A stretch of DNA of 64,000 nucleotides, from positions 1,240,001 to 1,304,000 of the forward strand of contig NZ_FXXL01000006.1 in NCBI RefSeq assembly GCF_900184685.1, in the 5' to 3' direction. This DNA comes from Butyricimonas sp. Marseille-P3923. GTDB taxonomy: Bacteria > Bacteroidota > Bacteroidia > Bacteroidales > Marinifilaceae. A program made the position numbers and the translations under genes. How positions within the stretch are numbered: position 1 is the stretch's first letter; the number at the start of each line of letters is the position of its first letter. Shown in pieces: positions 26,122 through 50,376 of this stretch. The notes beneath the pieces are model-generated. The model saw only the letters and a list, made by a program, of their open reading frames with translations. It made no database searches and was not told where the DNA came from.

Positions 26122-28863
26122 ATGATGAATAAGATTGTAAAAGATAAGTCGATTGATATCGTGACTCTTGAGCGTTTGTTTGAAGAGGTATGTTTCACGG
26201 GGGAGGAAGCGGAAGTTCTTGAGAAGTACACTTGTGATTATGATTTTACCTCTGTCGAGAAACAGGGGCCGGAGTGGATTTTTTCTTTGTTGAATGTCAT
26301 TCGGTCGGAACTGGCGGGAGAGGAAATCGTGATAGAGGATTATCGTTACCTGAACGGCGTGTTTATTCGTGTTCTGGAATGGTTGATCGAGGGGTCGACT
26401 TATTTAAAATGTTACGAGGGCGTCAAGTTGAATGACCAGCGGATGCTGGTGGAACGTTACTTGGATGAGGCTCTTGCGTCGAGAGAGGCGATCCGGTTGA
26501 TAGACACGGAGGGCGAGGGGGATTATGTGACGGATAAGTTGCGGAAGTTGACCTTGTCGGGCTATCTGTTTAAAAAGTCGTTGGTGTGGATTACCCTGTC
26601 AACAATCGTGCGTTTCAGTCCCCGCTTGCATCTTTTACCGGCAGAAGGTTTTGTGCTTTTGGTGTATCACACGTTGAACAAGAATTTCCCGCGGGTGACA
26701 GAATGTATGAACGAGCGGGTGGCATTGATGCGGGAACAAGATGATATTTTAAGTTTCGAGGGTAGGACGGAAGAACAGCTTCAAGATACGGTTTGGATTC
26801 TCGGCGCGAAATTGTTGTCGGGAGTTCCCGTGCAGGAAGAATTTGCCTGCCTGCGTTCCATGTTTTTCAGGTACCTGTATATTTTAGGGGAGAAAAAAGA
26901 GGAGTTGTTCCGGGAGAACGCTTTCAATTCCCTCTTGTTTAACCAGAAGAATCCGGTTTTCGCTTGGGAGGATTTGTTGAAATTTTCGCTTGCCGACTTG
27001 AAAGCCGTGATAGAGGAGAAGTCGGTCGCGGCTTTGAGAAATTGTCAAGGACGGATGTTTGACGGGAAGGGACAGGTACTGGTAGACAACAAGGCAATCA
27101 CTTTATCTGCACCGACTTCCACGAAATTCGACATGGTGGCGGAGATTAACGGGATGGCGTTGAAAGTCGGGAGTAACAAGAGAAAATTGGTTTTCGACGG
27201 GGAACTTGCTGAAGTGACAAAGTCATGGAGAGGCGTGTTCGCCGATTTCTCGGATGAACTCAAGAAGAATGTTTTGAAGAAAAGACGTCCGCCCGTGGGC
27301 GTGAGCGTGACGATAAAGATAAAATTGATATATAACCAGAACCCGACGTTGGCGTTCGTGTCGGTTGTGGACGACCAGTACGAGGGGAACGGAGTGCTGC
27401 ACGTGAGCCATATTACACGGGCAAAACTGGATACGATTGAAGATATTTTGCATCCCGGCGATTTGCTGCAGGCGACCGTGGTCGAGTCGAGCGAGGAGAA
27501 ACTTCAGTTTTCGATTTGGGAGGAGTTGAATCGTTCGGCAGCCGTGCGTCTGGATGCCGGGGACGAGTGCAATGCTTTGTTCCTGTACGAGAAAAACGAA
27601 TTGTTGATTTGGCTTTCTGAAAACGGGTATATCGTTTACACGAGTGTCCCGGAAGGAGTGGAGATAAAAGAGAATGATTGTTATTTATTGAGAATAACCG
27701 ATATACCGACCCGGGGACGGATAAGGGGTGAAATGGTTCAGGCCTCGACCGAGTCTTTTGATCGGCATGATGCCGTGTCGAACCTCGTGTACGAGTACTT
27801 GGGTGATTGTAAACGTTTTAGGGAAGGCGACGTGCAGGCGAATTTTAACATGGGCAAGATAGAACGGTCTGTGGATATTTCGCACGGGTACGTGAAGGAA
27901 TTGATTCGTTTGTTACAGTTCTATTTGACACGGGAGGTTAGTCTGGGTAATCTTAATTTGCTTTATTTTATTCGGTTGCTCTCTCACGTGTTGGGCGATA
28001 ATCGGTTGAAAACTTATTACGATTGCTTGATAAATTATTTGATCATAAGATACGAGTTCGTGGAAGAAGGGGATGTCAGGAAGATCGATTTGGATTTTTT
28101 GGAACGTGATTTCCAACGTTTCCCTGCTTTGGAGCGACAGTGGACAATTATCAAGATTCTCGCGGCATGTAAAGACGGTTCGTGCGCGGATGAGCTGGCG
28201 CGTTACTCCCGTTCGGGGGATGAAGATGTCGCAAATGTTGCGAAGTATATACTGGAAAAGGAGTTACCGGGACATACGGTTGGGACTTCCCGCTTGATAC
28301 ATGATGAACTTTTGGCTTTACTATCTTTCAAAAAGGAAGAACAGGAAGAATTGACGTTTGGCGAGCGGAATTTCGTGAGGGAGTTTATGGAGTCAATCGT
28401 GTATCCCGCGGGTTCGAGAGGTGCGGACGTGGAAGCACAAATCGATATGATGATGTGCGCGATATGCGGTTTCTTGAATGAACAGGGCGGGGTGGTCTAT
28501 ATCGGGGTGAATGACGAGGGCGAACCTGTCGGTGTACACGGCGATCTGGAGTATTTGTATTGCGTACCGGACAAGTACGAATTGTTCCTGCATAAGAGAA
28601 TTATTGAGGCATTCGGTGCTAATATAGATAGCTTGACTTTGATTAGATACCGGGAGGTTGATGGTTGTTTGGTTTTTGCTGTATCAGTTCCGCCTTATCA
28701 TCAGGTGGTAGAGTATGATTCCATTGTTTGGGAAAGGAGAGGGGAGGAGTTGTTGGAAATGCAGGGGGAAGACGTGAAAGTTTTGGAAGAGAAGCGGAAA
28801 ACGGTGGAACCGGGTATCATGGCAAGAGAACCGTTATTCCCGGGGGATAAAGGGTATGTTTAA
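26122..28863 (+). CDS. Large protein with C-terminal AlbA_2 (Schlafen-type) domain and a central S1-like region
   Basis: A 913-residue soluble protein with no signal peptide or clear membrane segment. The C-terminal region (about 740-860) matches the AlbA_2/divergent-AAA4 nucleic-acid-binding domain: ERNFVREFMESIVYP, then MMMCAICGFLNEQGGVVYIGVNDEGEPVG. Residues about 388-465 (GVSVTIKIKLIY through GVLHVSHITRAKLDTIED to GDLLQATVVES and LQFSIWEEL) resemble an S1/OB RNA-binding fold. The N-terminal ~380 residues and residues 500-740 are helical and unrecognised. It is a single gene between unrelated neighbours, ending 14 bp from the convergent permease gene. A role in RNA or DNA binding, possibly stress or phage defence, is inference. 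An in-frame ATG at the second codon is an equally good start. Confidence 0.7.
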   Translation: MMNKIVKDKSIDIVTLERLFEEVCFTGEEAEVLEKYTCDYDFTSVEKQGPEWIFSLLNVIRSELAGEEIVIEDYRYLNGVFIRVLEWLIEGSTYLKCYEGVKLNDQRMLVERYLDEALASREAIRLIDTEGEGDYVTDKLRKLTLSGYLFKKSLVWITLSTIVRFSPRLHLLPAEGFVLLVYHTLNKNFPRVTECMNERVALMREQDDILSFEGRTEEQLQDTVWILGAKLLSGVPVQEEFACLRSMFFRYLYILGEKKEELFRENAFNSLLFNQKNPVFAWEDLLKFSLADLKAVIEEKSVAALRNCQGRMFDGKGQVLVDNKAITLSAPTSTKFDMVAEINGMALKVGSNKRKLVFDGELAEVTKSWRGVFADFSDELKKNVLKKRRPPVGVSVTIKIKLIYNQNPTLAFVSVVDDQYEGNGVLHVSHITRAKLDTIEDILHPGDLLQATVVESSEEKLQFSIWEELNRSAAVRLDAGDECNALFLYEKNELLIWLSENGYIVYTSVPEGVEIKENDCYLLRITDIPTRGRIRGEMVQASTESFDRHDAVSNLVYEYLGDCKRFREGDVQANFNMGKIERSVDISHGYVKELIRLLQFYLTREVSLGNLNLLYFIRLLSHVLGDNRLKTYYDCLINYLIIRYEFVEEGDVRKIDLDFLERDFQRFPALERQWTIIKILAACKDGSCADELARYSRSGDEDVANVAKYILEKELPGHTVGTSRLIHDELLALLSFKKEEQEELTFGERNFVREFMESIVYPAGSRGADVEAQIDMMMCAICGFLNEQGGVVYIGVNDEGEPVGVHGDLEYLYCVPDKYELFLHKRIIEAFGANIDSLTLIRYREVDGCLVFAVSVPPYHQVVEYDSIVWERRGEELLEMQGEDVKVLEEKRKTVEPGIMAREPLFPGDKGYV

Positions 28864-32220: not shown

Positions 32221-32256
32221 ATATAGACACCACCGGAACTTTCACGGGATGAATGA
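32221..32256 (-). promoter_or_regulatory. Predicted ECF-sigma promoter of the permease fusion
   Basis: On the minus strand it reads TCATTCATCCCGT (32256-32244), 11 nt, then TGGTGTCTATAT (32232-32221), 28 nt before the start codon. Both blocks and the spacing are identical to the site before fecR at 33019-33054. GTC in the -10 region is typical of ECF promoters. Probably recognised by the sigma factor encoded next door. Confidence 0.78.
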
Positions 32257-32315
32257 CATTGAATATTTTTTAAGGAGCGTCTTTTTTTTTTAGAATGGAT
32301 GTTTGTCTGACGGGA

Positions 32316-32825
32316 CTATCCGAGTTCGTAATTGCCTGAACTGAAATACACCCGAAGTTTACGAATTGCGGCGTATTTTAAAGTTTTTATCGTGTTCACG
32401 GAAATTCCCATGATTTGAGCGATTTCTCTATTTTCGTAACCGGACAGGACAAGACGCATGATGCGAGCGCTTTGGAGGGGCAAGGTGTTGATAGCGTTTA
32501 TTAAGGTTTGGTTTGTATCCTCGGCAATCAGCTGGTTTAAGACTTGTGGATCTTCCTGCTCTTCAATTTCCAGTTTGGTATATCTTTGGGTTTCGCGTTG
32601 CAATCCTCGCAGGTAATTCAAGGATTCGTTTTTTACCATGGTATAGAGAAAATTGCCTATTGAGTTGATATCTTGTTGATTATGCTGATTTTCCCAGAAT
32701 TTGATAATGACTTCTTGTGCGATGTCTTGAGCCGCATCCGGCGACCCGACAAAACGAACGGCAACGGCGCATAGAGCGGCGTAATGCTCCTTGATAAATG
32801 TCTCTAGCTCATGGGATTTCCTCAT
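32316..32825 (-). CDS. ECF RNA polymerase sigma factor (locus C)
   Basis: Start chosen at ATG 32825 (MRKSHELETFIKEHY), giving 169 residues, normal for the Bacteroidetes FecI-like group; an ATG at 32876 would add 17. Region 2 spans about 8-75 (AAQDIAQEVIIKFWENQ, IGNFLYTMVKNESLNYLR) and region 4 about 105-165 (LPLQSARIMRLVLSGYENREIAQIMGIS). It is transcribed away from the fecR gene, unlike loci A and D where sigma and fecR are co-directional. The repeated promoter motif before fecR and before the permease fusion is the likely target. A 7-bp inverted repeat (32832-32852) lies just upstream of the start. Confidence 0.92.
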   Translation of the reverse strand: MRKSHELETFIKEHYAALCAVAVRFVGSPDAAQDIAQEVIIKFWENQHNQQDINSIGNFLYTMVKNESLNYLRGLQRETQRYTKLEIEEQEDPQVLNQLIAEDTNQTLINAINTLPLQSARIMRLVLSGYENREIAQIMGISVNTIKTLKYAAIRKLRVYFSSGNYELG

Positions 32826-32831
32826 ATCAAT

Positions 32832-32852
32832 AATCGTTCGTTTAAAACGATT
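32832..32852. repeat. Inverted repeat just upstream of the locus C sigma start codon
   Basis: AATCGTT (32832-32838) and AACGATT (32846-32852) are exact reverse complements with a 7-nt spacer, 7 to 27 nt upstream of the sigma ATG. It could be a binding site or an RNA hairpin near the ribosome-binding region; equally it may be chance in AT-rich DNA. Confidence 0.35.
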
Positions 32853-33018
32853 CAAAATGACAGAATATAGCCGCAATTCCGATTTTACAATGCATTAATA
32901 ATGAGCATTGTTAAAATTCTTTTGGTAGGATTGAGAAATAAATACTAAATATTAAAAAACGAAGGTTAAATAATATCGAGATGCAAGTTTATAAATAATT
33001 TTTGAATTTTTCATATTT

Positions 33019-33054
33019 TCATTCATCCCGTCTTTCGTTTTGTGGTGTCTATAT
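33019..33054 (+). promoter_or_regulatory. Predicted ECF-sigma promoter of fecR-susCD (locus C)
   Basis: TCATTCATCCCGT (33019-33031), 11 nt, TGGTGTCTATAT (33043-33054), ending 15 nt before the fecR ATG, so the leader would be very short. The same two blocks with the same spacing occur in opposite orientation before the permease fusion. Two matched copies in one locus beside an ECF sigma gene make this a strong promoter prediction. Confidence 0.8.
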
Positions 33055-33069
33055 AGAAACAAGTGAAAA

Positions 33070-34296
33070 ATGATGACATATAATAAAGCACAAATACTGG
33101 CACAAATAATCATTCGGGTAAAGTTGGGAGCGGCATCCGGGGAGGAGAGAGAAGTTTTGGGTGGATGGCTGGATGAGAGTGAAGAGAATCGCCAGTTGTA
33201 TAAAAGTATTATTCGTTGGAAATGTATCAGGGAAAGATTGAGATTGGAAGATGAGATTAACCAGACAACGGATTTCAAACGGGTACATCGTATCGTGTCA
33301 CGTCGTTTGGCGTACAGGGATACCGGGCAAAGGCGATGGGTCCGGATGGCATGGGCTTCCGGTGTCGCGGCTGTTTGTTTATACGGTGTTTTCTTTGTTT
33401 GGAATTCGATGCGGCAACCGGATGTGCCGATTGCCATGAATAAACAACAAAAAGTGGAGGAAACGGGGCAATCTCCCAAGCGGGGAAAAGTGATGCTGGT
33501 GCTTGAAGACGGTCGGCAGATCGGCTTGGAACGTAATGCTTCCGATAGTGTAAAATTGGCACGAGTGCCTCTTGTCGAGGTGGGAGAAAGTTTGTTGTAT
33601 AAACCGATGGTGGATTCCTTACCCTCGCAAGAGATTATTCATAAAATATACACGACGGTAGGGGGTGACTATTCGCTGGTATTGGGTGACGGCACGCGGG
33701 TTTGGTTGAACGCGGAGACGATGCTGGAGTATCCCGTGCAATTCGTGGGGAAGGAAAGAGTGGTAAAGTTGACCGGGGAAGCTTATTTTGAAGTGGCACG
33801 TGACACGGAAAAACCGTTTATCGTGGAGACGGGCAATATGCGGACTCGTGTTTTGGGAACATCTTTTAATATAAACGCTTACACGAACGAAGAAGCGATT
33901 TACACTACCCTGTTATCCGGTAGAGTGGAGGTGAGTCTGGCAGACGGAGTGGGACAAGATATGGCTCCCATGATATTGGAGCCGGGTATGCAATCCGCTT
34001 GGAAACGGGGTTCGGGTGATTTCGTGTCGAGAGAGGTGGATTTGGATAACGTGATTGCTTGGCGATACGGAGTCTTCATGTTTAATGAAGATGATCTTGA
34101 TGTGGTAACACGAGTGCTGTCCCGGTGGTATGGCGTGCAGTTCGTCGAGAGTCGGGGGAGCGTTGGAAAGCATACTTTTAGCGGGAAGATGAGTAAGGAT
34201 GAAAACCTTGAATCCATTTTGAAGATATTGACCTTGGCAGGAGGTCCTGAATTCAAAAGGGAGGGAGATACAGTATATGTAATTGAGAGAAAATAA
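33070..34296 (+). CDS. FecR-family anti-sigma factor (locus C)
   Basis: A 408-residue inner-membrane anti-sigma factor. Cytoplasmic N-terminus with an AQILAQIIIRVKLGAASGEE-type start; membrane segment about 90-111; periplasmic FecR domain about 195-300 (DYSLVLGDGTRVWLNAETML, TGEAYFEVARD, RVLGTSFNINAY); DUF4974-like end about 330-405 (NEDDLDVVTRVLSRWYGVQF). It should hold the sigma factor encoded divergently at 32316-32825 until the STN domain of the SusC signals. A 15-nt gap separates it from the predicted ECF promoter. Two hairpins follow it before susC. Confidence 0.93.
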   Translation: MMTYNKAQILAQIIIRVKLGAASGEEREVLGGWLDESEENRQLYKSIIRWKCIRERLRLEDEINQTTDFKRVHRIVSRRLAYRDTGQRRWVRMAWASGVAAVCLYGVFFVWNSMRQPDVPIAMNKQQKVEETGQSPKRGKVMLVLEDGRQIGLERNASDSVKLARVPLVEVGESLLYKPMVDSLPSQEIIHKIYTTVGGDYSLVLGDGTRVWLNAETMLEYPVQFVGKERVVKLTGEAYFEVARDTEKPFIVETGNMRTRVLGTSFNINAYTNEEAIYTTLLSGRVEVSLADGVGQDMAPMILEPGMQSAWKRGSGDFVSREVDLDNVIAWRYGVFMFNEDDLDVVTRVLSRWYGVQFVESRGSVGKHTFSGKMSKDENLESILKILTLAGGPEFKREGDTVYVIERK

Positions 34297-34383: not shown

Positions 34384-37300
34384 ATGAAAAAAAATTACAA
34401 GACAAAAAAGTTTTGTAGACTTTCGATCAGATGTAGCCTGTTGTTATGCAGTATTTTGATACTGGGAATAACATCTGTATTCACGAGTTCGACGGTCTAC
34501 GGGCAAAAAACGGTTCAGCGATTTTCTTTGAAACTCGAAAGTGTGAGTGTCTTGGATGCACTTCGGGAAGTAAACCGGTTGAGCGGGAACTCGGTCGTTT
34601 TCAAGAAAGAGGAAGTCGAAAAGGAGAGCAGGCGGGTTACCGTGGATTTGAAGGATGTCACGGCGTTGGAAGCTGTTAGGGCTTGCTTGGCGGGTACGAA
34701 ACTATCGTGTGTGGAGAGCGACGGTAAAGTGGTAGTTATACCGGAAAAGGAGCAGAAGGCGAAGATCGTGTCGGGTGTTATTTACGATGCCTCGGGACAA
34801 CCTTTACCGGGAGCCACGGTGGTCGTGAAAGGAACGGCGTCAAAAATCGGTACCAGTGCGAACGTGGACGGGGAGTATCAGATTGTTGTTCCTGCAGGTA
34901 CGAGTGTTCTGGTCTATTCTTTTATCGGTTATAAATCGAAAGAAGTCGAGATCAAAGAGCAGACGAAAATCAACGTGACGTTGGAAGAGGACGTGAAGAA
35001 CGTGGACGAAGTCGTGGTGGTTGCTTACGGGACGCAGAACAAGCGGGATGTGCTGGGTGCCATGTCCACGGTGAATGCTGATGACATCAAGGATATTCCT
35101 TCACCGTCACTTGCCAATCTTTTGCAGGGACGGGTTGCCGGGATGAGCGTTATCAACATGACGGGAGCACCCGGTGGTGGAGGAACTTCGATTTCCATCC
35201 GCGGGTTCAATAGTTTGTCGGTCGAGGCTGCACAGCGGTTCAGTAACCCGTTGTGGGTGATTGACGGGGTGCCCATGTATAGCTTTACCTCTCCGGTCAG
35301 CGGGTTGAACACCTTGGCGGAAATTGACCCCAAGGACATTGAGTCCGTGCAAGTGTTGAAAGATGCGGCGTCCGCTTCGATTTACGGATCGCGTGCGGCG
35401 AACGGGGTAATTTTGGTTACAACTAAAAAAGGACGTTTCAATCAGAAGGCGAAAGTCAGCGTGAACGTGTCGCAGACTTGGATATTCAATCCCTCTTTGC
35501 CGGATCTCACGGGTGGAAATCGGGAACGCTACCATCGTATGGAAGCATTGAAAAATTATCAAGAGGCCGGTTTTAGTGATTCGCAAAACCGTTACTTGTA
35601 TGTGGATTCGTATAAAGAATCTTATTTACGAGATATCATGTACGATTATTTTTGGGGTAAAGGGAATGGCGCCGGAGTCCCTTTGTACCAAGATAGTTTG
35701 AACAAATTTTATAACAACTCCACTAATCTCTTTGATTATTATTTCCGCACGGCACGAGTGACGGATGCTAGCCTGCAATTGACCGGGGGAGCGGAACGGA
35801 TGACTTATAACTTCGGTTTGGGCTACTACTCGGAAACAGGAGTACTAAAAGGTACTGGGTTCAATCGTATGAAATTGATATCCAATATAACGGTTAAACC
35901 GATGAATAAAATGGATGCTAATTTACGTTTCTACTTGGCATACACGGATCGTAGCCGTTCTTCCGAGGAGATGAATACACTTTCATTTAACACGGGAACC
36001 GATTTGGAGCAAATACCCAAGGAATTGTTGGAAACATCCACGCTTTACCCGGGAAAGGGAACTCCCGCGTTCGATGAGGCTACTAAGCGTTTCCGGGGTA
36101 CGAAAGAGAAAAACGATTCCTACCGGGCAAGAGCCAGTTTTGATGTTAATTATGAGTTTCTCAAAGGTTTGTCTTTCAAGACGTCTGTGGCGTTAGACTA
36201 TTCTCAACAGAACGTGAATATCTTTCTGCCTTCTGATCTGAACGATTACAATGAATCTTATTCTAGCGGGCAGGTTGAACGGTATATGATGTTGTTGAAC
36301 GAGAACTTGTTGACCTATAAGCGTTCTTTTGCTGAAAATCATAACGTAGATTTCTTGGTGGGATTGTCGCTACAATCGGATGAGGCGAATAAAATCGGGG
36401 GATACGGTTACAAGGCTCCCAGCGACTTGATTCATTACGTGCCTTGGTACCACGAGTCGTATGATGTGGCCGGCAGCCGCCAATTGAAAGAGTATTTGTC
36501 GACCCGGAAAAAAAGCACGATGGTTGGTGTATTCGGTCGGTTGAATTACAACTATATGCAGAAATATTTGCTTTCTTTTAGTTTAAGGCGTGACGGAAGT
36601 TCCAAGTTTGGTGAAGATGTACGTTGGGCTACTTTCCCGGCTTACGCTGTCGGTTATGCATTCTCTGAGGAGTCGTTCATGAATTGGGCGAAAAACGTGT
36701 TGGATTACGCGAAAATCCGGCTTAGTTACGGGAAGTCGGGGAAACAATTTTCTGAGCCTTATATTGCTTTGGGATTGCTAGAACCATCGGCTCCGTTCCT
36801 TGGAAACCCGACTGTTGCTCCGGACTGGGACGAAGGATTGTTCAATCCTACTTTGACTTGGGAGGAAACAGACCAGTATGATTTCGGTCTGGATCTTGAT
36901 TTATTCAATTACAGGCTGAATGTGGTGTTGGATTATTATTATCGTTATACTGACAAATTATTATATAACGTGACGCTACCGGGAAACTACTCGGGATACA
37001 TCAAACAGTGGCAGAACGCCTACGCGATTTCCAACGAGGGAATTGAGTTGCAAATCAAATGGGATATTTTGCGTCGGGACAACTTGAAATGGGATATGAC
37101 CTTCAATATTGCCCGGAACTGGAATCGCTTGGAAAAGAGTCTTAACGGTGTGGATTTCCAAACGTACGGGGATGCCGGTTATTTTGACAGTAACGTGAGT
37201 ATTATCGGTAAACCGCTGAATGGACTTTACGTGTATAAGGATAAAGGATACTATAATAGCGACGACGAGGTGCCTTATATCTACGAGAACGGGAACAAAG

Positions 37301-37953
37301 TATACCTGCATGGTAATGGTTATCGTCAGTATTTCCGGGCAGGCGACCGTGTCATGATGGATATGGACGGGAATGGTTCGGTTTACACCTCGTGGCCTTT
37401 GCAAGAAGACCGGGTGTATGCGGGTTCGCCCCTGCCGAAAGCTAGCGGCGGTATCGTTTCGACACTCAACTGGAAAGGTTTTGACGTGAATGTGTTGTTC
37501 ACTTACGTGCTTAGCCGGCATATTTTGAATGCCGGGAAAGGTGCTTCCGTGGGTACGAGCTTGGGATTGGAGATGGATGATCTAACCCTTCCTATTTTTG
37601 CCGATTTGGACAAAGTCACTTTCTGGCAAAAACCGGGCGACAAGACGGACTTCCCTGTTAATCGGCTGGAAGCCGGGTTGGGTAATTTCACGACGATACT
37701 CAGTTCCAACGTGGAAAATGTGAATTACTTGAAATTGAAAACCTTGACAATAGGGTACACTTTGCCGCAAAAATGGACAAGACGTGCGGGAATGGAAAGT
37801 GCGAGGGTATTTATTTCCGGGGAGAATCTATTCACGATCACCAATTACTCGGGTCCCGACCCGGAATCTGTTGACGTGGTTACCGGTGTGGATAATTTTG
37901 GTAATTACCCGCTCAGCACGCGTGTCACGTTAGGTTTAACCCTTAATTTCTGA
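34384..37953 (+). CDS. SusC/RagA-type TonB-dependent receptor with STN domain (locus C)
   Basis: 1189 residues. Signal segment about 13-38, STN domain about 43-95 (VSVLDALREVNRLSGNSVVF), carboxypeptidase-D-like domain about 127-200 (GQPLPGATVVVKGT), plug about 206-345 with NPLWVIDGVPMYS and VLKDAASASIYGSRAANG, then barrel to LTLNF. Its plug differs from loci B and D (longer loop with ISIRGFNSLSVEAAQRF), so it is a different receptor subtype. The STN domain should signal to the FecR 87 bp upstream. The stop codon overlaps an ATG used or passed by susD. Substrate unknown. Confidence 0.95.
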   Translation: MKKNYKTKKFCRLSIRCSLLLCSILILGITSVFTSSTVYGQKTVQRFSLKLESVSVLDALREVNRLSGNSVVFKKEEVEKESRRVTVDLKDVTALEAVRACLAGTKLSCVESDGKVVVIPEKEQKAKIVSGVIYDASGQPLPGATVVVKGTASKIGTSANVDGEYQIVVPAGTSVLVYSFIGYKSKEVEIKEQTKINVTLEEDVKNVDEVVVVAYGTQNKRDVLGAMSTVNADDIKDIPSPSLANLLQGRVAGMSVINMTGAPGGGGTSISIRGFNSLSVEAAQRFSNPLWVIDGVPMYSFTSPVSGLNTLAEIDPKDIESVQVLKDAASASIYGSRAANGVILVTTKKGRFNQKAKVSVNVSQTWIFNPSLPDLTGGNRERYHRMEALKNYQEAGFSDSQNRYLYVDSYKESYLRDIMYDYFWGKGNGAGVPLYQDSLNKFYNNSTNLFDYYFRTARVTDASLQLTGGAERMTYNFGLGYYSETGVLKGTGFNRMKLISNITVKPMNKMDANLRFYLAYTDRSRSSEEMNTLSFNTGTDLEQIPKELLETSTLYPGKGTPAFDEATKRFRGTKEKNDSYRARASFDVNYEFLKGLSFKTSVALDYSQQNVNIFLPSDLNDYNESYSSGQVERYMMLLNENLLTYKRSFAENHNVDFLVGLSLQSDEANKIGGYGYKAPSDLIHYVPWYHESYDVAGSRQLKEYLSTRKKSTMVGVFGRLNYNYMQKYLLSFSLRRDGSSKFGEDVRWATFPAYAVGYAFSEESFMNWAKNVLDYAKIRLSYGKSGKQFSEPYIALGLLEPSAPFLGNPTVAPDWDEGLFNPTLTWEETDQYDFGLDLDLFNYRLNVVLDYYYRYTDKLLYNVTLPGNYSGYIKQWQNAYAISNEGIELQIKWDILRRDNLKWDMTFNIARNWNRLEKSLNGVDFQTYGDAGYFDSNVSIIGKPLNGLYVYKDKGYYNSDDEVPYIYENGNKVYLHGNGYRQYFRAGDRVMMDMDGNGSVYTSWPLQEDRVYAGSPLPKASGGIVSTLNWKGFDVNVLFTYVLSRHILNAGKGASVGTSLGLEMDDLTLPIFADLDKVTFWQKPGDKTDFPVNRLEAGLGNFTTILSSNVENVNYLKLKTLTIGYTLPQKWTRRAGMESARVFISGENLFTITNYSGPDPESVDVVTGVDNFGNYPLSTRVTLGLTLNF

Positions 37954-37958
37954 TGTTT

Positions 37959-39476
37959 ATGAAAAAGAATATATTACTGCTTGTACTTCTTGCGGCATTC
38001 GCTTTTGGCTGTGAGGACTTTTTGACCGAAGAACCGGAAATCGCGGTAACCAACAATAATTTCTGGAAGAACGAGAAGGATGTTGAGAGTGCTGTATACG
38101 GTATGCATTCGGTTTTTCGTACGGTGTTTGGCGATGTGGTCATGCTTTACCGGGATAGGGGGATGCCTTTTGATTTTATGAATGCATTATGGCAATATCC
38201 TTCCAATAACCAACCCAGTTATATGTGGAATGCGAGTTATCCTGCCATCGACTGGAGGAACGAGTATAAAGTGATTGCCCAAGCTAATCTGGTGATCGAT
38301 AATGTCGACCGGGCGAATCTACCGCAAGAAAGACACAATTATTATTTGGGGCAGGCTTACTGTATCCGTGCTTACACCTATTTTTATATCCTAAGGGCAT
38401 GGGGGGATGCACCCTTGATTAAAGAATCGGTGGACGTCGGCGAGAAAGCCCGTACCCCTTGGCAAGAATTGGCTGATTTCGCTATCGAGGATTTGAAGTT
38501 GGCGGCGAAAATGTTGCCGAAAGCTCGGGATTTGTATGATGCCGGAAACGTGAAAGTAACTAGCAAACAGATTCCCTCCAGTGGTACTGCCCACGCCATC
38601 TTGGCTCACTTGTATGCATGGAAGGCTGCATTAAATAATGAGCCGGAACTGAATAAGCTAAGTATTGCCGAGGCGGATTCTGTTATTAAACACGGTGGTT
38701 ATGTGCTGGCGGGAAGCCCGAAGGAAGTTTGTGACGTGGTGATGCTGGGAAATAGCGACGAGGGTATTTTCGAGGTCGATTACCAGAATATGCCGGGAGA
38801 TTTGAAAGGCTCCGGGGCGTTTATTGCCGGGGCTTGCCAGAGATGGCCGATTCAACCGTTGACGACTCCTGCTACACGGCGTTCATTATTGCGTATCAAC
38901 AACACCACGGTCATGGAAATGTATATGGACGAGTCGGATGAGCGACGGGATGAATATTTTTACAAGTTGGACTCCATGGCAGGCGTGGCAACGTCGGTGA
39001 CTCAAGGAGCCGCTTATATCAGCAAGTGGCGGGGCGTGGTGCTTAACGTCGGGGGCTCGGGTGACGGAACCTTGAAGTCGTACGAGGATAACGAGATTTT
39101 GATCCGTTTGGCAGATATCATTCTGCTTCGTGCCGAGGTGAAAGCAAAGATGGGCGATACCCCGGGGGCTATTGCTGATTTGAATGCGATCCGTGATAGG
39201 GCTGGCGCTCCTTTGTATTCCAGCGCCGAGGGTGACTTGCAGGAAGCTATCGCCAAGGAGCGGGACAAGGAATTGTTCTTGGAAACGGGAATTCGTTACT
39301 ACGATATCATTCGGAACGGAACTTTCCGGGAGAAGCTGAGAGGTAAATACAAGACTCTTACCGAGCAAGATGTGGCTGACGGGGGATACTATCTGCCCGT
39401 GGGGAGTGGGGCTTTCACCAACAATACCCTAATGCGACAAACGTTATATTGGAAACGGAATGGATACGCTTATTAA
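37959..39476 (+). CDS. SusD/RagB-family surface lipoprotein (locus C)
   Basis: Start chosen at ATG 37959 (MKKNILLLVLLAAFAFGC), 505 residues; an ATG at 37953 overlapping the susC stop would add two residues. Lipobox AFGC, then EDFLTEEPEIAVTNNNFWKNEKD, a typical SusD N-terminus. TPR-like helices (GQAYCIRAYTYFYILRAWGDAPLI), a NEILIRLADIILLRAEVKAKMGD helix and IAKERDKELFLETGIRYYDIIRNG near the C-terminus confirm the family. Coupled to susC and followed by two further lipoprotein genes. Confidence 0.94.
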   Translation: MKKNILLLVLLAAFAFGCEDFLTEEPEIAVTNNNFWKNEKDVESAVYGMHSVFRTVFGDVVMLYRDRGMPFDFMNALWQYPSNNQPSYMWNASYPAIDWRNEYKVIAQANLVIDNVDRANLPQERHNYYLGQAYCIRAYTYFYILRAWGDAPLIKESVDVGEKARTPWQELADFAIEDLKLAAKMLPKARDLYDAGNVKVTSKQIPSSGTAHAILAHLYAWKAALNNEPELNKLSIAEADSVIKHGGYVLAGSPKEVCDVVMLGNSDEGIFEVDYQNMPGDLKGSGAFIAGACQRWPIQPLTTPATRRSLLRINNTTVMEMYMDESDERRDEYFYKLDSMAGVATSVTQGAAYISKWRGVVLNVGGSGDGTLKSYEDNEILIRLADIILLRAEVKAKMGDTPGAIADLNAIRDRAGAPLYSSAEGDLQEAIAKERDKELFLETGIRYYDIIRNGTFREKLRGKYKTLTEQDVADGGYYLPVGSGAFTNNTLMRQTLYWKRNGYAY

Positions 39477-39488
39477 AAATGCAAAATT

Positions 39489-40112
39489 ATGAAACTACGA
39501 TATTTAATGATTCTATTTATATTCGGTCTGGGTGCGTGTGATGATGATTATTTTCACGATACCGGACTGGCAAACGGACGGCATGATTGCACCGTGTGGG
39601 AATATTTGCATAAAGATTCCTACAATTGGGATTCGACGATACTGGTAATTGAGCGTGCGGGACTGGTGGATTTGTTTGACGGGAAAGACCCGGCGTATCC
39701 CGAGATTACTTTCTTCGGACCGACGAATTTCTCGATTATGCAATTCATGTACAAAACGGTGGACGGTAATGAAGAGATGCTGTACAATCGGATTGCGGAC
39801 ATCCCCGCGGATATGTGCCGGAAAATGATCCTGTGTCATGTCCTTCCCAAGAAAATGATGAAGGAAGAATTTGATTATGAAGTGAAAGGAACCTTAGAGG
39901 GAGGGACCTATATTAATGCTATATCCGGCACAGAATTGCGTGTTTTCCGAGCAAAATCGTCTTACATGGGTATTGCCGACATCGGGGCGGAATCTTTGGG
40001 GCTTCATGCTTTGGCAACCGGTTTCCTCGTGGGAATCGCTTCTGCCGATATTGAAATGAATAACGGGGTTGTGCACTCTTTGAGTTACACGTACCAATTT
40101 TCAGAACTTTAA
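39489..40112 (+). CDS. Fasciclin (FAS1) domain lipoprotein (locus C)
   Basis: A 207-residue lipoprotein; lipobox GLGAC (Cys about 17). The rest is one FAS1-like domain: a TVWEYLHKDSYNWDSTILVIERAGLVDLF start, the EITFFGPTNFSIMQF motif (FAS1 H1-like), and VVHSLSYTYQF at the end (H2-like). FAS1 domains mediate adhesion or ligand binding; such lipoproteins recur in Bacteroidetes SusCD operons. It begins 12 bp after susD. Surface exposure with the SusCD complex is inferred. Confidence 0.82.
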   Translation: MKLRYLMILFIFGLGACDDDYFHDTGLANGRHDCTVWEYLHKDSYNWDSTILVIERAGLVDLFDGKDPAYPEITFFGPTNFSIMQFMYKTVDGNEEMLYNRIADIPADMCRKMILCHVLPKKMMKEEFDYEVKGTLEGGTYINAISGTELRVFRAKSSYMGIADIGAESLGLHALATGFLVGIASADIEMNNGVVHSLSYTYQFSEL

Positions 40113-40123
40113 TAATTTTCAGG

Positions 40124-40549
40124 ATGAAGAATATGTATAGAATAATGATATTATTGGCTTTCGTGACCGTGTCGGCAGTCTGCTGCCAGGATATTACGGT
40201 TGGTTACTTGATGACTGCCAATGCCGCTTACACGCCGGATTCGTTGGTAGTGAAAGCCGTGCTGGATCCGGAGGATGATGCTCACCAGATAAAATTCGAG
40301 ATTCCTTGGCAATCGACTTCTATCGAGGGGGTACAAGGAACCTTTCCGTTGGTTTATTCCATTAAGAGCATTGCGTGTGATAACGGGCATTCGGAAGCGG
40401 CTTCTCAATTTACGATGGCTCGCAAGGGGGTAATCGAATTGCCATGGAACCATACGGTCCCTCCCGGTCGTTATGTGATTACACTGGAAGTTTCTAACGA
40501 GGGATACACACGAGTGTTGGATTCTGTTTTCACAGTCATAGTGAAATAA
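40124..40549 (+). CDS. Small beta-rich lipoprotein (locus C)
   Basis: 141 residues; hydrophobic leader and a Cys-Cys pair (SAVCCQ) consistent with lipoprotein processing. The mature ~120 residues are predicted as a single beta-sandwich (SLVVKAVLDPEDDAHQIKFEI, PLVYSIKSI, GRYVITLEVSNEGYTRVLDSVFTVIV), like an E-set or immunoglobulin-like module. I do not recognise the family. It follows the FAS1 gene by 11 bp and ends the operon before the terminator at 40571. Confidence 0.72.
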   Translation: MKNMYRIMILLAFVTVSAVCCQDITVGYLMTANAAYTPDSLVVKAVLDPEDDAHQIKFEIPWQSTSIEGVQGTFPLVYSIKSIACDNGHSEAASQFTMARKGVIELPWNHTVPPGRYVITLEVSNEGYTRVLDSVFTVIVK

Positions 40550-40633: not shown

Positions 40634-43600
40634 TTACACCAGCGTGAAACTTGAATTTAGTGCTGTTTTGAGTTCTTGAATCAGTTTATTCGCGTTTAGG
40701 GGTTTGGATACATAACTATTGAATCCGTTTTTCATGATTCGTTCCTTATCCGAGGCGAAAGCATATGCCGTGACGGCGATAATGGGAACCGAATCAGAGA
40801 ATTTCCTTATCTCTCGCGTGGCTTCGTAACCATCCATTTTGGGCATATTGATATCCATGATGATGATTTGAGGTTTGTGTTGTTGGTATAATTCAACTGC
40901 TTCCAGTCCGTTCCAGGCGTGGATAAGTTTGTATTTTGAACCAAGAATAGATTGAAACAGCAAATAATTGCTTTCATTGTCTTCTGCTATCAGTATTGTG
41001 ATATCTTTCTGTTTTATGCATTCTTTCTGTATTTCTATAATAACGGGTTTACTTTCTTCGGTGGCAGTCAAGTGCGGGATGGTGAACCAGAAAGTGCTGC
41101 CTTTGCCTTCACCATCGGATTCTACACCAATACGACCTGACATTTTTTCAACGATGCTTTTGCAAATGGAGAGACCGAGCCCGGTTCCCTGCGCGAAATC
41201 GTTCAGTTTGGTGAAACGTTCGAAAATACGTTTTTGTCCTTCTTGTGATATGCCTAATCCGGTGTCGCGGACGAAGAAACGGATTTCATTCTCTTGCAGT
41301 TCATAACCGAAAGTGATACATCCTTTGGGGGTGAATTTGCAGGCGTTTGTCAGTAAGTTTATCAATACTTGGGACAAACGATTGGGTTCTGTTTGGATGT
41401 AACAATCGGCAGCCCCGAGAGTGAAGTTCAATATTACCCCCGGCTGAACTCGTAGGCGTACGGTGCTTTCCACGGAACGAATGAGTTCATTCAAGTCGGT
41501 AGATTGGTAATTGAAATCGAGCGTGTTCGATTCTACTTTTGCCAAATCGAGCACGTCATTAATCAATTGTAGCAGTAATTGATTGTTATTCTCGATGATT
41601 CCTATAAATTGTTGTTTTTGTTCCTCGTCTTCGGTCGTGGTCAACAGGTTCGAGAATCCCACGATAGCGTTTAATGGCGTGCGAATCTCGTGGCTCATGT
41701 TGGCGAGGAAGGCGGATTTCAGACGGTCGGATTCTTTCGCTTTTTCCCTTGCCGAGATAAGAGCCTGTTCTTGTTTTTTGCGTTCGGTAATTAATAACAA
41801 TGAGCCGATAAGAGCGGTGGGGTGCTCGGTATTATCGCATTGGGACACGGCGGCGTTGATTTCCAGCCAGTCAATGTGTTCTTTGCCCGCTTTTTGAGAA
41901 ACAATGCGGAATTCTGCCTTGGTGTATTGTAATTTCCCGTTTAAAAAGTCGTGGTGTATTTGCTTTACCCGGGCAACGTCCTCCGGGTGTATTCTTTGGA
42001 AGTATTCGCTTTCTTCGATGATATGTATCGAGTGAGTCGAGCCTTCCTGCTTGGTGAAGTTCATGTGGCTCAGTACACGTTGTACCTCGCAGGCTATTTT
42101 GTGATTTTTCAAATCCCAACGCCACGGGATAATACGTGCCACGCTCAATGTCATATCCAATTTTCTCGCCGATTCTCTTAAATCGTTCTCTGCTTTGCTT
42201 CGGCTTGTGACATCCAGCCCGAAGATATCAATCACGTTTTCTTCTGCCGACTGGCAAATGATGAATTCATAGAAGGTGTTGGTCTGTTTGAAATAATGCG
42301 TGAACGTGACCGAACTTTCTTTTTGGAAGACGGTTTCGATGAAAGGTGAAATATATTCCACGGGGAAAAGCGAATGCTGCTGGTCGTTATCCGTGTTTTG
42401 CTTGGTTAGCGTGTTGAATGACTCGTTCGTGGAATGGTAAGTCAAGCGTGTCACGTGACTGTCTTTATTGAAATTGACGGCGGCTTGCGCGTAACAGATG
42501 GGCATGTTGCGTACCAGTATGTTGTGTGTTTTGAAGAGGGCGAGTTTCTTGCGTTGGAACAAGGAGTTCAAGACGGCAACGATAATCAGCGACACGAGGA
42601 TAATGATACCGATGATGATCTGCCAGCTATATTGTTGCCATAGGGTTTTCGGTTTGTTGATAAACTTTGTTCCCGGCAGACAATTTTCAATGGAAAGGTG
42701 GTCTTGGACTAGTTGAATGTAGTTGACCACGGGGTGTGATTTTGTAGAATAGATAAAAGGAATGTTGCGCATGGATTTCCCTTCCAGCATTTTGATGACA
42801 AGTGCCGGAAGAGCTTCTTGTGTTTGTTTTCGCTCGGGAAAATAACCGCCAAGAACACCATCTTGAAGATAGGCACTTCGTAGGGCGAAAACGGGATGGG
42901 GGGATGCGGAAATCATACGTGTATCCCCGGAAATGAGCGTGGGGAAGCCGTGCACGTTTTTGCGTTCATAGAACCAAGTGGAGAAAAGTAAACCGATTGT
43001 CAGATCCCGGCTGACCAAGTATTCTTGCAAGTGTTCGGCGTTTTGATCGTTACCCACGAGCCACTCGTATTCGAGGGTAGGGTATTTTGCTAAAATATAC
43101 GCGTGAACAAGTCTGTCCAGATAACGATTCGTGTAAAGTTCGTCCGCGATGAAAACGATTTTCTTTATTTGTGGCTGCATTTGTACCATCATATCGATGG
43201 TTTGTTCGTATAGGAGCGGTATCTCGATATACGCGAAATTGTATTGCTCTCTGACTTGGGATAACGGGGTTAATTTACAGTCCATTAAATTTAGTGTGCC
43301 ACCCGTGTAATAATATTCGTTCGGTGCGAATGAATCCTCGTTACCGATTAATATCATCGGGATATCGCCCCATTCTTGTTTGATACGATCTCTTAAAGTA
43401 AAAGCCATGTTGCCGATTAGTACCAGATAGTCAGGTTTTTTATTTTCGAAACGGGTGAAAATGCCGTCTTCCATCTGTTTGAATAATGTCTTGTTACGGA
43501 TGAACGTGCCGTTCATGTGAATGATTTCGGCAGACACTCCTGCGGTCTGGGCTGTTTGCATTGTGATAGGAGTGATCAATTCCTGACTCCATGGAGCTCC

Positions 43601-43741
43601 TTCGTTATAGGAATTGATAATAAGTAGACGTTGCTGCTCTTTGGCTTCTGTTGTTTGGGGTATGAGCGCCGATGTAAATCCCAAGTATGCAAATAGCATA
43701 ACCACGCACTTGGAAATAAGATAGGATTTTTCGTGTATCAT
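40634..43741 (-). CDS. Hybrid two-component sensor histidine kinase with periplasmic substrate-binding-like sensor
   Basis: Start chosen at ATG 43741, giving 1035 residues with a signal peptide; an ATG at 43837 would put 32 non-signal residues in front. Sensor: periplasmic region about 35-370, like ABC-type substrate-binding sensor domains (RLLIINSYNEGAPWSQE). Membrane helix about 372-395. PAS-like region about 530-660. HisKA about 675-740 with the phospho-acceptor in SHEIRTPLNAIVGF (His about 684). HATPase_c about 785-900. C-terminal receiver about 910-1030 with IIIMDINMPKMDG (phospho-Asp about 961) and SKPLNANKL. There is no DNA-binding output domain, so a separate response regulator or phosphotransfer partner is needed. 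Divergent from the fimbrial operon. Confidence 0.92.
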   Translation of the reverse strand: MIHEKSYLISKCVVMLFAYLGFTSALIPQTTEAKEQQRLLIINSYNEGAPWSQELITPITMQTAQTAGVSAEIIHMNGTFIRNKTLFKQMEDGIFTRFENKKPDYLVLIGNMAFTLRDRIKQEWGDIPMILIGNEDSFAPNEYYYTGGTLNLMDCKLTPLSQVREQYNFAYIEIPLLYEQTIDMMVQMQPQIKKIVFIADELYTNRYLDRLVHAYILAKYPTLEYEWLVGNDQNAEHLQEYLVSRDLTIGLLFSTWFYERKNVHGFPTLISGDTRMISASPHPVFALRSAYLQDGVLGGYFPERKQTQEALPALVIKMLEGKSMRNIPFIYSTKSHPVVNYIQLVQDHLSIENCLPGTKFINKPKTLWQQYSWQIIIGIIILVSLIIVAVLNSLFQRKKLALFKTHNILVRNMPICYAQAAVNFNKDSHVTRLTYHSTNESFNTLTKQNTDNDQQHSLFPVEYISPFIETVFQKESSVTFTHYFKQTNTFYEFIICQSAEENVIDIFGLDVTSRSKAENDLRESARKLDMTLSVARIIPWRWDLKNHKIACEVQRVLSHMNFTKQEGSTHSIHIIEESEYFQRIHPEDVARVKQIHHDFLNGKLQYTKAEFRIVSQKAGKEHIDWLEINAAVSQCDNTEHPTALIGSLLLITERKKQEQALISAREKAKESDRLKSAFLANMSHEIRTPLNAIVGFSNLLTTTEDEEQKQQFIGIIENNNQLLLQLINDVLDLAKVESNTLDFNYQSTDLNELIRSVESTVRLRVQPGVILNFTLGAADCYIQTEPNRLSQVLINLLTNACKFTPKGCITFGYELQENEIRFFVRDTGLGISQEGQKRIFERFTKLNDFAQGTGLGLSICKSIVEKMSGRIGVESDGEGKGSTFWFTIPHLTATEESKPVIIEIQKECIKQKDITILIAEDNESNYLLFQSILGSKYKLIHAWNGLEAVELYQQHKPQIIIMDINMPKMDGYEATREIRKFSDSVPIIAVTAYAFASDKERIMKNGFNSYVSKPLNANKLIQELKTALNSSFTLV

Positions 43742-43816
43742 TATGGCAATATATTTTCTTCGCTTGTAAAATTGTATAGAATTTCTATCCTCGTAATTTG
43801 ATATTTTATGTGTCTG

Positions 43817-43847
43817 CAAAAATATTAAAATCTGCAATGATGATCAA
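43817..43847 (-). promoter_or_regulatory. Promoter of the hybrid kinase gene
   Basis: On the minus strand, TTG at 43847-43845, 20 bp, then TATTTTTG at 43824-43817, matching the -33/-7 layout of Bacteroidetes promoters. Gives a leader of ~70 nt to the ATG at 43741, which supports that start over 43837. Confidence 0.55.
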
Positions 43848-44266: not shown

Positions 44267-44860
44267 ATGGGAAAAATGAGTTTAAAGATTTGCGTGTTTT
44301 TGCTTTTTGGGCTTTTTTTCAGCACGGGAGCGAAATGCCAAAAGATGGCAGTAAAGAGCAACTTGTTGTATGATGCAACGGCAACGATTAATGCCGGTGT
44401 GGAGTTTCGTTTAGCCCCGAGGTGGACGTTTGATCTTTCGGGTAATTATAACGGGTGGACTATATCGGGTGACCGTAAGTGGAAGCATTGGATGATGCAA
44501 CCGGAAGTCCGTTACTGGTTTTGTGATCGTTTCGCTGGACATTTTCTAGGTGCACATGCGTTAGGGGGAAAGTACAATATCGGTAACTTGAAAAACAGCA
44601 TCTCTTTTCTGGGGACTGATTTCTCCAAGTTGACAGATCGTCGTTATCAAGGTTGGTTTATAGGTGCCGGGGTAGCTTACGGTCACTCGTGGATACTTTC
44701 CAAGCATTGGAATTTCGAGGCGGAAATCGGTGTGGGGTACATTTACACGCGTTATGACGTGTATCCTTGTGCCGAGTGCGGGACGAGATTGGCAAAAGGG
44801 CGGTCGCATCATTACGTGGGACCGACAAAAGCGGCGTTGAATTTGGTTTACTTGTTTTAA
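44267..44860 (+). CDS. DUF3575 outer-membrane protein of the fimbrial operon
   Basis: ATG 44267 chosen (197 residues); a TTG at 44261 and an ATG at 44276 are alternatives, all in front of one signal peptide (LKICVFLLFGLFF... to AKC). The mature protein is beta-rich: KMAVKSNLLYDATATINAGVEFRLAPRWTFDLSGNYN is the characteristic start of DUF3575 proteins, with WFIGAGVAYGHSW and a final NLVYLF strand, suggesting a small outer-membrane barrel. DUF3575 genes head Mfa-type fimbrial operons in Bacteroidales. The next gene starts 11 bp later. Confidence 0.85.
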   Translation: MGKMSLKICVFLLFGLFFSTGAKCQKMAVKSNLLYDATATINAGVEFRLAPRWTFDLSGNYNGWTISGDRKWKHWMMQPEVRYWFCDRFAGHFLGAHALGGKYNIGNLKNSISFLGTDFSKLTDRRYQGWFIGAGVAYGHSWILSKHWNFEAEIGVGYIYTRYDVYPCAECGTRLAKGRSHHYVGPTKAALNLVYLF

Positions 44861-44871
44861 AAAGGACGGTT

Positions 44872-46284
44872 ATGAGAAAGATATGGTGTTTTATCATGTT
44901 GATATTATTCGGGGCAAACGTGAGCGGGCAGAAACTTGCCGACGGGCAGGTCGTGGTGAGGAATCTCGACGTGGTGCACGGAGAGAATGCCTTGTTTGTT
45001 TCGATGGATTTGGATGTATCCGCTTTGGATATTGCCACTAACCGGGAATTGCTTTTTGTTCCGGTATTGAAAGGAGATCGGGATAGCGTTCAGTTACCCT
45101 TTGTGATAGTGGCGGGACGGAACCGTTATTTCTATCATTTGCGCAATACTCCCGTGTCGGATGGGGATATGCTGGAACGCGCCGGACAGGCAAAAGTGAT
45201 TCGTTATCGAGCCGCATTGCCGCTCGAGGGATGGATGTCTAAGGCGACGCTGGTAATAGACGAGAGTGCTTGCGGTTGCCGTGGCGAAGGGGAGGACAGT
45301 CGGGTACCCTTGTTGCGGATGGAGCCGAAGGTTTATACCCCGGTGTTCGTGTATTTGCCCCCGGAAGTGGAGACGGTGAAGACGCGGGAGGTGAAAGGTT
45401 CCGCTTATATCGATTTCCCGGTGAATCGCACGGAGATTCATGAGGATTACCGGAATAACCCGTCGGAGTTGCGGAAGATCAGGCAGACGATAGACGTGGT
45501 GCGGAATGATCCGGATGTTCGTATCACTTCGTTAAGCATCAAGGGATTTGCCTCTCCCGAGGGTACTTATGCGAATAATACCCGTCTTGCCAAGGGAAGA
45601 ACGGCAACATTGAAAACGTATGTGCGGGAGTTGTATCACTTCCCGGACAGCGTGATCTTGACTTCCTATGAGCCGGAAGATTGGGCGGGGTTGGAGGCTT
45701 ACGTGGACAGCACGAATTTGAGAAATCGTGATGCGATACTGGCGCTTATCCGTTCCGGTGTGGAGCCGGATGCTAAAGAGAAGATGATAAAATCGACTTA
45801 TCCGGAGGATTACCAGTTCCTGCTGAAGAACGTGTATCCCGGTTTGCGGCACTCGGATTACGTGGTGCGATACGTGGTACGTACTTACACGAGTGCAGAA
45901 GAGATACGCCGAATCATGAAAACACAACCGCAGAAATTGAGCCTTCGGGAGTTGTATATTGCTGCGCAAGGTTTGGAGCCGGGCAGTGACGAGTACAACG
46001 AGGCTTTCGAGATTGCGGTGCGGATGTTCCCGGGGGATGAGGTCGCTAACTTAAATGCTGCCAATGCCGCCATGGCGAAGGGCGACTTGAAGGGAGCTGC
46101 TCGTTACTTGGATAAGGCGGGTGACCGTGGGGAAACTGTTTATGCCCGAGGGGTCTATGCCGCACTATTGAAAGATTATGAAACGGCGATGAGGGTTTTC
46201 ACCGAGGCAGCCCGGAGGGGCATAGCTGAGGCAGAAGATGCCTTGCGCCAAGTAGAAGAAGTAAAAAATGACCAATTTAAATAA
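44872..46284 (+). CDS. DUF3868 domain protein with OmpA-like C-terminal part
   Basis: Start chosen at ATG 44872 (MRKIWCFIMLILFGANVSG), 470 residues with a signal peptide; the longer open frame from 44767 overlaps the previous gene. The N-terminal ~160 residues match DUF3868 (VVRNLDVVHGENALFVSMDLDVSAL). Residues about 185-290 resemble the OmpA peptidoglycan-binding fold (IDFPVNRTEIHEDYRNN, ITSLSIKGFASPEGTYANNTRLAKGRT). The C-terminal ~120 residues have TPR-like helices (DLKGAARYLDKAGDRGETVYARGVYA). Probably a periplasmic or outer-membrane assembly factor for the fimbriae. GC-rich (hand count 60% for line 45361-45420). Confidence 0.85.
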   Translation: MRKIWCFIMLILFGANVSGQKLADGQVVVRNLDVVHGENALFVSMDLDVSALDIATNRELLFVPVLKGDRDSVQLPFVIVAGRNRYFYHLRNTPVSDGDMLERAGQAKVIRYRAALPLEGWMSKATLVIDESACGCRGEGEDSRVPLLRMEPKVYTPVFVYLPPEVETVKTREVKGSAYIDFPVNRTEIHEDYRNNPSELRKIRQTIDVVRNDPDVRITSLSIKGFASPEGTYANNTRLAKGRTATLKTYVRELYHFPDSVILTSYEPEDWAGLEAYVDSTNLRNRDAILALIRSGVEPDAKEKMIKSTYPEDYQFLLKNVYPGLRHSDYVVRYVVRTYTSAEEIRRIMKTQPQKLSLRELYIAAQGLEPGSDEYNEAFEIAVRMFPGDEVANLNAANAAMAKGDLKGAARYLDKAGDRGETVYARGVYAALLKDYETAMRVFTEAARRGIAEAEDALRQVEEVKNDQFK

Positions 46285-46293
46285 AAAGAAAAG

Positions 46294-48279: not shown

Positions 48280-48287
48280 GAAACGAC

Positions 48288-50362: not shown

Positions 50363-50376
50363 AAACTTAAGGAGAT

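Follow-up and report, generated by a model that had tools for sequence, protein, structure and literature searches.

The FecI/FecR/FecA system of Escherichia coli combines a TonB-dependent outer-membrane protein, the inner-membrane regulator FecR and an ECF sigma factor that transcribes the transport genes, and an inner-membrane transporter is placed under the same sigma factor. Fusions of an ABC-2 permease with an M1 aminopeptidase are also a known kind of protein.

According to the accessible parts of two reports, a SusC-coupled anti-sigma factor and an ECF sigma factor control the SusCD operon in Bacteroides PULs (PMC3878776, PMC11501099), and the excerpt of the first of these, from 2013, calls the prediction of ECF-controlled promoters challenging and requires start-site data for it (PMC3878776). 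Two-element promoter motifs of a non-housekeeping kind are described, within the available portions of the sources, as PM2 in B. thetaiotaomicron and as SM6 in F. psychrophilum, the latter with CGT as its -10 box (PMC7366714, PMC9723704). In 2020, as far as the available text of the source goes, no motif was then known for any ECF sigma factor of B. thetaiotaomicron (PMC7366714), and in the excerpt of a 2025 report PM2-like elements with ‘TGTT’ were suggested for SigW-1 and SigH-1, the SigW-1 motif not being significant (PMC12596196). Among the matches listed in the open-licence literature, we found nothing on the motif presented here, on an unlinked conserved target, on a pairing with the permease family or on Golvesin permeases.

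Two copies of a spaced motif around a sigma gene

We analysed a stretch of 64,000 nucleotides from Butyricimonas sp. Marseille-P3923 (contig NZ_FXXL01000006.1, positions 1,240,001 to 1,304,000), hereafter the window, which contains a FecI-type locus (Table 1). Like the E. coli system, this locus combines a TonB-dependent outer-membrane protein, a FecR-type regulator and an ECF sigma factor, but SusC and SusD take the place of FecA, the sigma gene is divergent from the adjoining fecR, and the motif is a different one. The sigma ORF comprises 186 aa when read from the TTG at 32876, and the ATG at 32825, which would give 169 aa, is likely to be the true start. Its best NCBIfam match is the Bacteroidetes subfamily model TIGR02985 (120.7 bits, just below the cut-off of 126.4). 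The match of the SusC N-terminus to the STN domain is weak, at 19.1 bits under a cut-off of 28.4. On the far side of the permease-like gene lies a gene for a 913-aa protein with a C-terminal SLFN_AlbA_2 domain (26122-28863, + strand), the B. synergistica relative of which is 77% identical and directly adjoins the sigma gene in that species. The window also carries a fimbria-like cluster of DUF3868, Fimbrillin_C, Mfa2 and, by a weak match, DUF4906 proteins (44767-53484, + strand), and a hybrid histidine kinase is encoded beside it (40634-43837, - strand).

Table 1. Features of the FecI-type locus, in coordinates of the window
Feature	Position	Strand	Remarks
Permease-like gene, 1104 aa	28878..32192	-	Membrane segments at the N-terminus (ABC-2 permease-like), an M1-peptidase-like middle lacking HExxH, and Golvesin_C at the C-terminus
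Site A, candidate promoter of the permease gene	32221..32256	-	Same two blocks and 11-nt spacing, different spacer; same core before the Sanguibacteroides permease
FecI-type ECF sigma gene	32316..32876	-	Sigma70_r2 and Sigma70_r4_2 above cut-off
Possible housekeeping -7 box TAAACTTG for the sigma gene	32983..32993	-	Resembles TAnnTTTG
Site B, candidate promoter of fecR-susCD	33019..33054	+	Both blocks exact; core kept before fecR in orthologous loci
fecR, anti-sigma factor / sigma regulator	33070..34296	+	Pfam FecR and FecR_C above cut-off
SusC/RagA TonB-dependent transporter	34384..37953	+	TIGR04056, 766 bits
SusD/RagB surface lipoprotein	37953..39476	+	Domain search
Fasciclin-domain protein, same operon direction	39489..40112	+	Domain search
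141-aa protein, no family assigned	40124..40549	+	Conserved together with the fasciclin gene at the loci of G002 and G003

The window holds two exact matches to TCATTCATCCCGT-N11-TGGTGTCTATAT, one ahead of the permease-like gene (site A) and one ahead of fecR (site B), and these were the only matches when up to three mismatches were allowed; 100 shuffles gave none. A preliminary description of this DNA had claimed that the same 25 bases recur at both sites with an 11-nt spacing, that the spacer itself differs and that the ECF sigma gene lies between the two, and each of these points was borne out by the exact search and the coordinates. It had also proposed that the two-block motif be sought genome-wide. 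In the own genome (5,300,003 bases in 7 contigs), sites A and B proved to be the only two copies at up to three mismatches, and the reversed control pattern had no match anywhere in the genome. Within site B, the -35-like TTCATCC occupies 33022-33028 and the -10-like GGTGTCTATAT occupies 33044-33054. The end of site B is 15 nt from the ATG of fecR, and that of site A is 28 nt from the ATG of the permease gene.

The spacers of the two sites agree at 2 of 11 bases and the 40-nt flanks at 14/40 and 18/40, so that a recent long duplication is an unlikely origin of the pair. Such a duplication would retain the spacer, and the finding that the blocks are kept while the spacer is different therefore points to selection on the blocks. 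It is very likely that the repeated blocks are the promoter served by the adjacent FecI-type ECF sigma factor.

No copy of the motif was found in the window upstream of the sigma gene on the strand of that gene. The possible -7 box listed in Table 1 resembles the housekeeping consensus TAnnTTTG given in the accessible part of its source (PMC7366714), and the presence of this box suggests that the sigma gene is not expressed from the sigma factor’s own motif. Boxes of the form TAnn[TC]TTG were found up to 260 nt upstream of the sigma gene at 14 of the 16 loci examined, with none in L073 and L074, this being a raw count that is uncorrected for chance. A housekeeping-like box together with the lack of an own motif at this position would fit a sigma factor that is made constitutively and held by FecR.

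Conservation of the core in related genomes

Relatives were searched with a core, TTCATCC-N15-GGTGTCT, which is shorter than the full 25-base motif. This core gave 12 exact matches, in 7 of the 56 genomes of the family, and its reversed control gave none in the same 56. Ten of the 12 are not within ORFs and have a gene downstream, which is fecR in six cases (own genome, G001, G002, G003, G010 and G068), a permease gene in two (own genome and G010) and a small gene beside the sigma gene of G001 in two, namely a 91-aa ORF directly upstream of the sigma gene and a 157-aa CarbopepD_reg gene. The other two lie within ORFs and were rejected as targets; one is in G067, and the other, inside a 443-aa ORF at C1:1597298, is the third exact match to this shorter core in the own genome. 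The own one-mismatch matches at C1:1088104 and C6:317327 are both within ORFs as well. Two more one-mismatch sites near the sigma gene of G001 are followed only by short frames. In the G001 locus (L064), the exact core at 8961 (- strand) precedes the 91-aa ORF, which ends 12 bp before the sigma gene, and positive autoregulation of the sigma factor is possible in this species.

The distance from the start of the core to fecR is 36-53 bp in loci with the core or a close variant (48 bp in the window); for the two permease genes this distance is 46 and 61 bp, and for the pair of G001 genes 69 and 87 bp. Over 13 canonical sites, the mean share of the commonest base was 0.52 in the spacer as against 0.88 in the -35 block and 0.84 in the -10 block, both block values being inflated because most of the 13 sites were picked by the core itself.

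At a threshold of E 1e-45, 15 of the 56 family genomes have a match to the sigma factor. An exact core precedes fecR in six of the seven whose best sigma match is at least 58% identical, a limit that was chosen post hoc, and in the seventh (G050) the -35 is exact and the -10 has two mismatches. The exact core is lacking from the eight genomes with a sigma factor 46-57% identical; among them, the cut fecR frame of G048 (57%) is not preceded by a site of this kind, and the stretches examined of G018 and G065 (about 55%) do not contain fecR. A collection of 84,980 species, from which the own genome is possibly absent, was scanned with the pattern CATTCATCC-N15-GGTGTCTWW and gave 10 matches, three of them before fecR or a permease gene in Butyricimonas/Sanguibacteroides and seven elsewhere, six of these seven within ORFs. 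The seventh, in a Lachnospiraceae MAG (L107), which lies outside ORFs of at least 90 aa and 48 bp before a 114-aa ORF, was taken as chance.

Sanguibacteroides sp. GM7 (G010) has its sigma locus on contig C6, and unlinked to it, on contig C7, is the best homolog of the window permease in the 19 genomes searched (about 40% identical), with an exact core 46 bp before its start. No ORF matching the window sigma factor or FecR at E 1e-3 was found in the 18 kb examined around this C7 permease gene. B. synergistica DSM 23225 (G002) possesses an orthologous locus with a sigma factor 86-88% identical to that of the window; the 16 kb examined there contain neither a permease gene nor a second site, and its permease-family genes lie elsewhere in the genome. 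That the second site is missing where the adjacent permease is missing supports the reading of the blocks as a sigma promoter. Two spaced blocks may also form the site of an activator, and the repeat could in that case be bound by a DNA-binding regulator other than a sigma factor. We consider this very improbable, since the position before genes, the GTC-containing -10 and the -35-like block at a fixed spacing all fit a sigma promoter, and the motif co-occurs with the closest orthologs of the sigma factor.

Variation among the loci also bears on the sigma-promoter reading. Clade labels I-V were assigned from promoters and positions before the sigma tree was made. The promoter before fecR is TTCATAC-N15-GGTGTCT in clade II, GTAATACC with GGTGTCTTTA in clade III, TTCATCC-N14-GACGTC in clade IV and TTCATCC-N15-GACGTCT at the one locus of clade V. 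In the sigma tree, which was built without the L079 sigma factor (no frame of at least 140 aa) and has four outgroup rows on long branches, clades II, III and IV+V are supported branches, and clade I, to which the canonical motif belongs, is a polytomy. In clade II (L069, L073 and L074) the promoter is near-identical across three genomes, spacer included, whereas the clade I spacer drifts. The core is thus kept before orthologous fecR genes and its variants follow the sigma sub-clades, which argues for the earlier proposal that the motif is the target of the adjacent sigma factor.

The best explanation of the whole, in which we have considerable confidence, is that a sigma factor freed from FecR would fire both site B, for the import operon, and site A, for the permease. 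The ECF sigma factor encoded between the two sites would recognise the 25 repeated bases, as a -35 (TTCATCC) and a -10 (GGTGTCTATAT) element, and transcription would start just downstream of GTCTATAT at both sites. The sigma factor would be produced from a housekeeping-type promoter and sequestered by FecR; when SusC and SusD engage a ligand, the signal would pass by way of the SusC N-terminus to FecR, and the sigma factor would be released. It would then transcribe rightward from site B through fecR, susC, susD, the fasciclin gene and the gene of the 141-aa protein, and leftward from site A into the permease/Golvesin gene. Transcription of the transport operon by the sigma factor is suggested by the conserved promoter sequence, while sequestration by FecR, signalling by the ligand and the need for the sigma factor are inferred from the FecIRA/SusCD family. 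The permease could also be expressed by transcripts that read through from the sigma gene.

fecR promoters across the genome

In the own genome, FecR was matched 126 times and the sigma family 139 times; five of the sigma matches are weak fragments, which leaves about 134 full ECF sigma matches. For B. thetaiotaomicron, the available portion of one report gives 50 ECF sigma factors (PMC12596196). We compared the regions upstream of 90 of the 126 fecR genes, 80 of the 90 on stretches of only about 4.5 kb, with gene starts set by a first-ATG rule that makes some of them wrong (L150 and L175 seem too long, L186 too short). Many of these 90 upstream regions show an A-tract followed, about 10 nt further on, by a TCACCC-like -35, and an EM motif run converged on the A-tract with the -35 rather than on a -35 with a -10. 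The sequence TCA[CT]CC was present in 29/90 fecR upstream regions versus 11/262 of other genes, a comparison that is partly circular because the motif was first noticed in the same sequences. These 29 regions have a T-rich stretch with G or T at the expected -10 position. Since many fecR genes share the architecture of an A-tract and TCACCC/TCATCC, the window motif is, on sequence grounds, best classed as one variant of a genome-wide promoter class and not as a new promoter type.

This related architecture of the own fecR promoters also speaks for a promoter that is real but not private, in which case several sigma paralogs of the same sub-family would recognise the motif and the regulon would be larger and overlapping. 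The fecR promoter of a paralogous sigma factor on contig C1 (G000:C1:2123865) differs at one core base, so that cross-recognition is possible and the regulon is perhaps not private, and partly overlapping ECF regulons have been suggested in Flavobacterium in the accessible part of one source (PMC9723704). However, the full 25-base motif has no further copy within three mismatches in the own genome, and sub-clades II-V use different -35, spacing or -10 sequences. On balance we think it rather unlikely that the motif is shared in this way, and possible cross-talk with the C1 paralog is the main alternative to a sigma factor that serves sites A and B of its own locus. The two-target regulon put forward in the preliminary description stands in so far as the own genome has just the two occurrences of the full motif; it holds for the canonical sequence only, as the site of the C1 paralog is one mismatch off, and the set of targets varies by species, G001 having extra sites.

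A double promoter is not supported as the rule at fecR loci. Two-block repeats scoring 24/24 were found at 2 of the 90 loci, that of the window and L079 (G000:C6), and both of these pair fecR with a permease-family gene. The next scores were 21 at one locus (L178) and 20 at three (including L145, where the repeat lies before its sigma gene); two of the three repeats scoring 20 look self-inverted, and a control with swapped loci (178 pairs) reached a maximum score of 20. At L178 (G000:C4:48763-53294), the 21/24 copy of the fecR promoter, at about 2958 on the - strand, is 45 bp upstream of a thioredoxin-like gene (195 aa) that is divergent from the sigma gene.

At L079 (G000:C6:196001-214000), near-identical promoters of the form TTGTCACAC-N12-AAGCCGTTATAG precede a permease-family gene and fecR at 7271 and 10782. 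This motif is unrelated to that of the window and is found exactly twice in the own genome, and two-mismatch matches of its type were found in G060 and G009. Because the match runs through the spacer, the L079 repeat may be a recent copy, and site A of the window might likewise be a mere copied piece of the fecR promoter, functionless for the permease. This is very improbable in our judgement: the window spacers and flanks are poorly alike, as if the blocks had been retained while the spacer drifted, and in another genus, Sanguibacteroides, the best permease homolog is preceded by the same core.

The permease-like protein and comparison with described systems

In a Pfam search, the window permease matched Golvesin_C only, at its C-terminus, and six hydropathy peaks, two of which overlap, fall within its first 200 residues. 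The profile built from 18 relatives matched the xanthan lyase C-terminus (E 3.6e-6) and, weakly, aminopeptidase N (E about 0.01) and the NosY permease (E 0.13). When the 18 family members were scanned, Golvesin_C was found in 18/18, Peptidase_M1 in 3/18 and the ABC-2 models in 2-3/18 each; ABC2_membrane_4 was matched in 3/18, and the window protein has no Pfam ABC2_membrane match. The zinc motif HExxH is present in 1/36 family sequences, representing 35 distinct genes with one G010 gene counted twice (L067 and L114), and catalytic M1 activity is therefore unlikely in the members without it. The gene had earlier been called an inner-membrane permease/M1-like protein, and this description survives in its ABC-2-like and M1-like parts, both of them weak matches, to which Golvesin_C is added, with the reservation that HExxH is absent from the window protein. 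A phmmer search of the PDB with the window permease gave no matches, and nothing was found when it served as the query in the search for related loci.

The neighbours of the window permease are the sigma gene and the SLFN_AlbA_2 gene, and the window annotation contains no ABC ATPase gene next to it; an own paralog, L105, adjoins an ABC ATPase gene and an outer-membrane efflux gene. This permease/Golvesin family has expanded: the own genome encodes 17 members, and the Sanguibacteroides genome, of 3.4 Mb, gives 54 match rows. A member lies within about 16 kb of the sigma gene at four of the seven loci with the closest sigma factors (own, G001, G003 and G010), and none was found near the sigma gene in G002, in G068 or in the 11 kb examined of G050. 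The near-sigma members in relatives have differing arrangements and are 29-33% identical to that of the window. A general tendency of permease genes to lie near ECF sigma genes was not supported in the own genome, where 2, 5 and 8 of the 17 permeases were within 2.6, 5 and 8 kb of one of the 134 sigma genes versus 2.4, 4.5 and 6.7 expected (p 0.70, 0.47 and 0.33; permease positions are approximate gene midpoints, and 5 weak partial rows of the 139 sigma matches were left out). These distances are no shorter than chance, and hence no general partnership is shown.

We offer as a tentative and rather doubtful extension that ECF sigma factors of the Butyricimonas group may gain targets by promoter capture, with pseudo-M1/Golvesin permeases as a favoured recruit. 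Within the same sigma clade, different members of the permease family are found, in several species, behind a site of their own, in line after fecR-susCD, or unlinked behind an exact site, and the second own sigma locus, L079, also has a promoter pair for fecR and a permease, with an unrelated motif. If promoter capture were true, SusCD signalling would have in the permease a functional partner at the inner membrane, whose role might be transport or the relief of stress from the imported ligand. The locus further assigns to one sigma factor a specific candidate promoter whose presence can be tested in other species. Comparing a fecR promoter with its orthologs, and with repeats elsewhere in the same locus, would be a simple route to the promoters of other sigma factors, and the locus allows the question of how sigma systems so numerous and so alike are kept apart to be tested directly.

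The permease-like protein resembles the known ABC-2/M1 fusions in its weak profile matches to the NosY permease and aminopeptidase N and in the position of its paralog L105 beside an ABC ATPase, but differs in the rarity of HExxH (1/36), in the constant presence of Golvesin_C (18/18) and in the lack of an adjacent ABC ATPase at the window gene. Compared with the E. coli Fec system, the inner-membrane gene of the window encodes a permease/M1-like/Golvesin_C protein and has its own copy of the promoter. The arrangement of a SusC-coupled anti-sigma factor with a sigma factor is shared with the ECF systems of Bacteroides PULs, as these appear in the accessible parts of the reports, whereas in the present case a specific candidate promoter, with an unlinked conserved target, was obtained purely by comparing sequences. 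PM2 and SM6, in the available descriptions, are common to many genes, in contrast to the full motif of the window with its two copies in the genome. The kind of system and its presumed mechanism are thus known, and what is new is the candidate motif and its target pairing.
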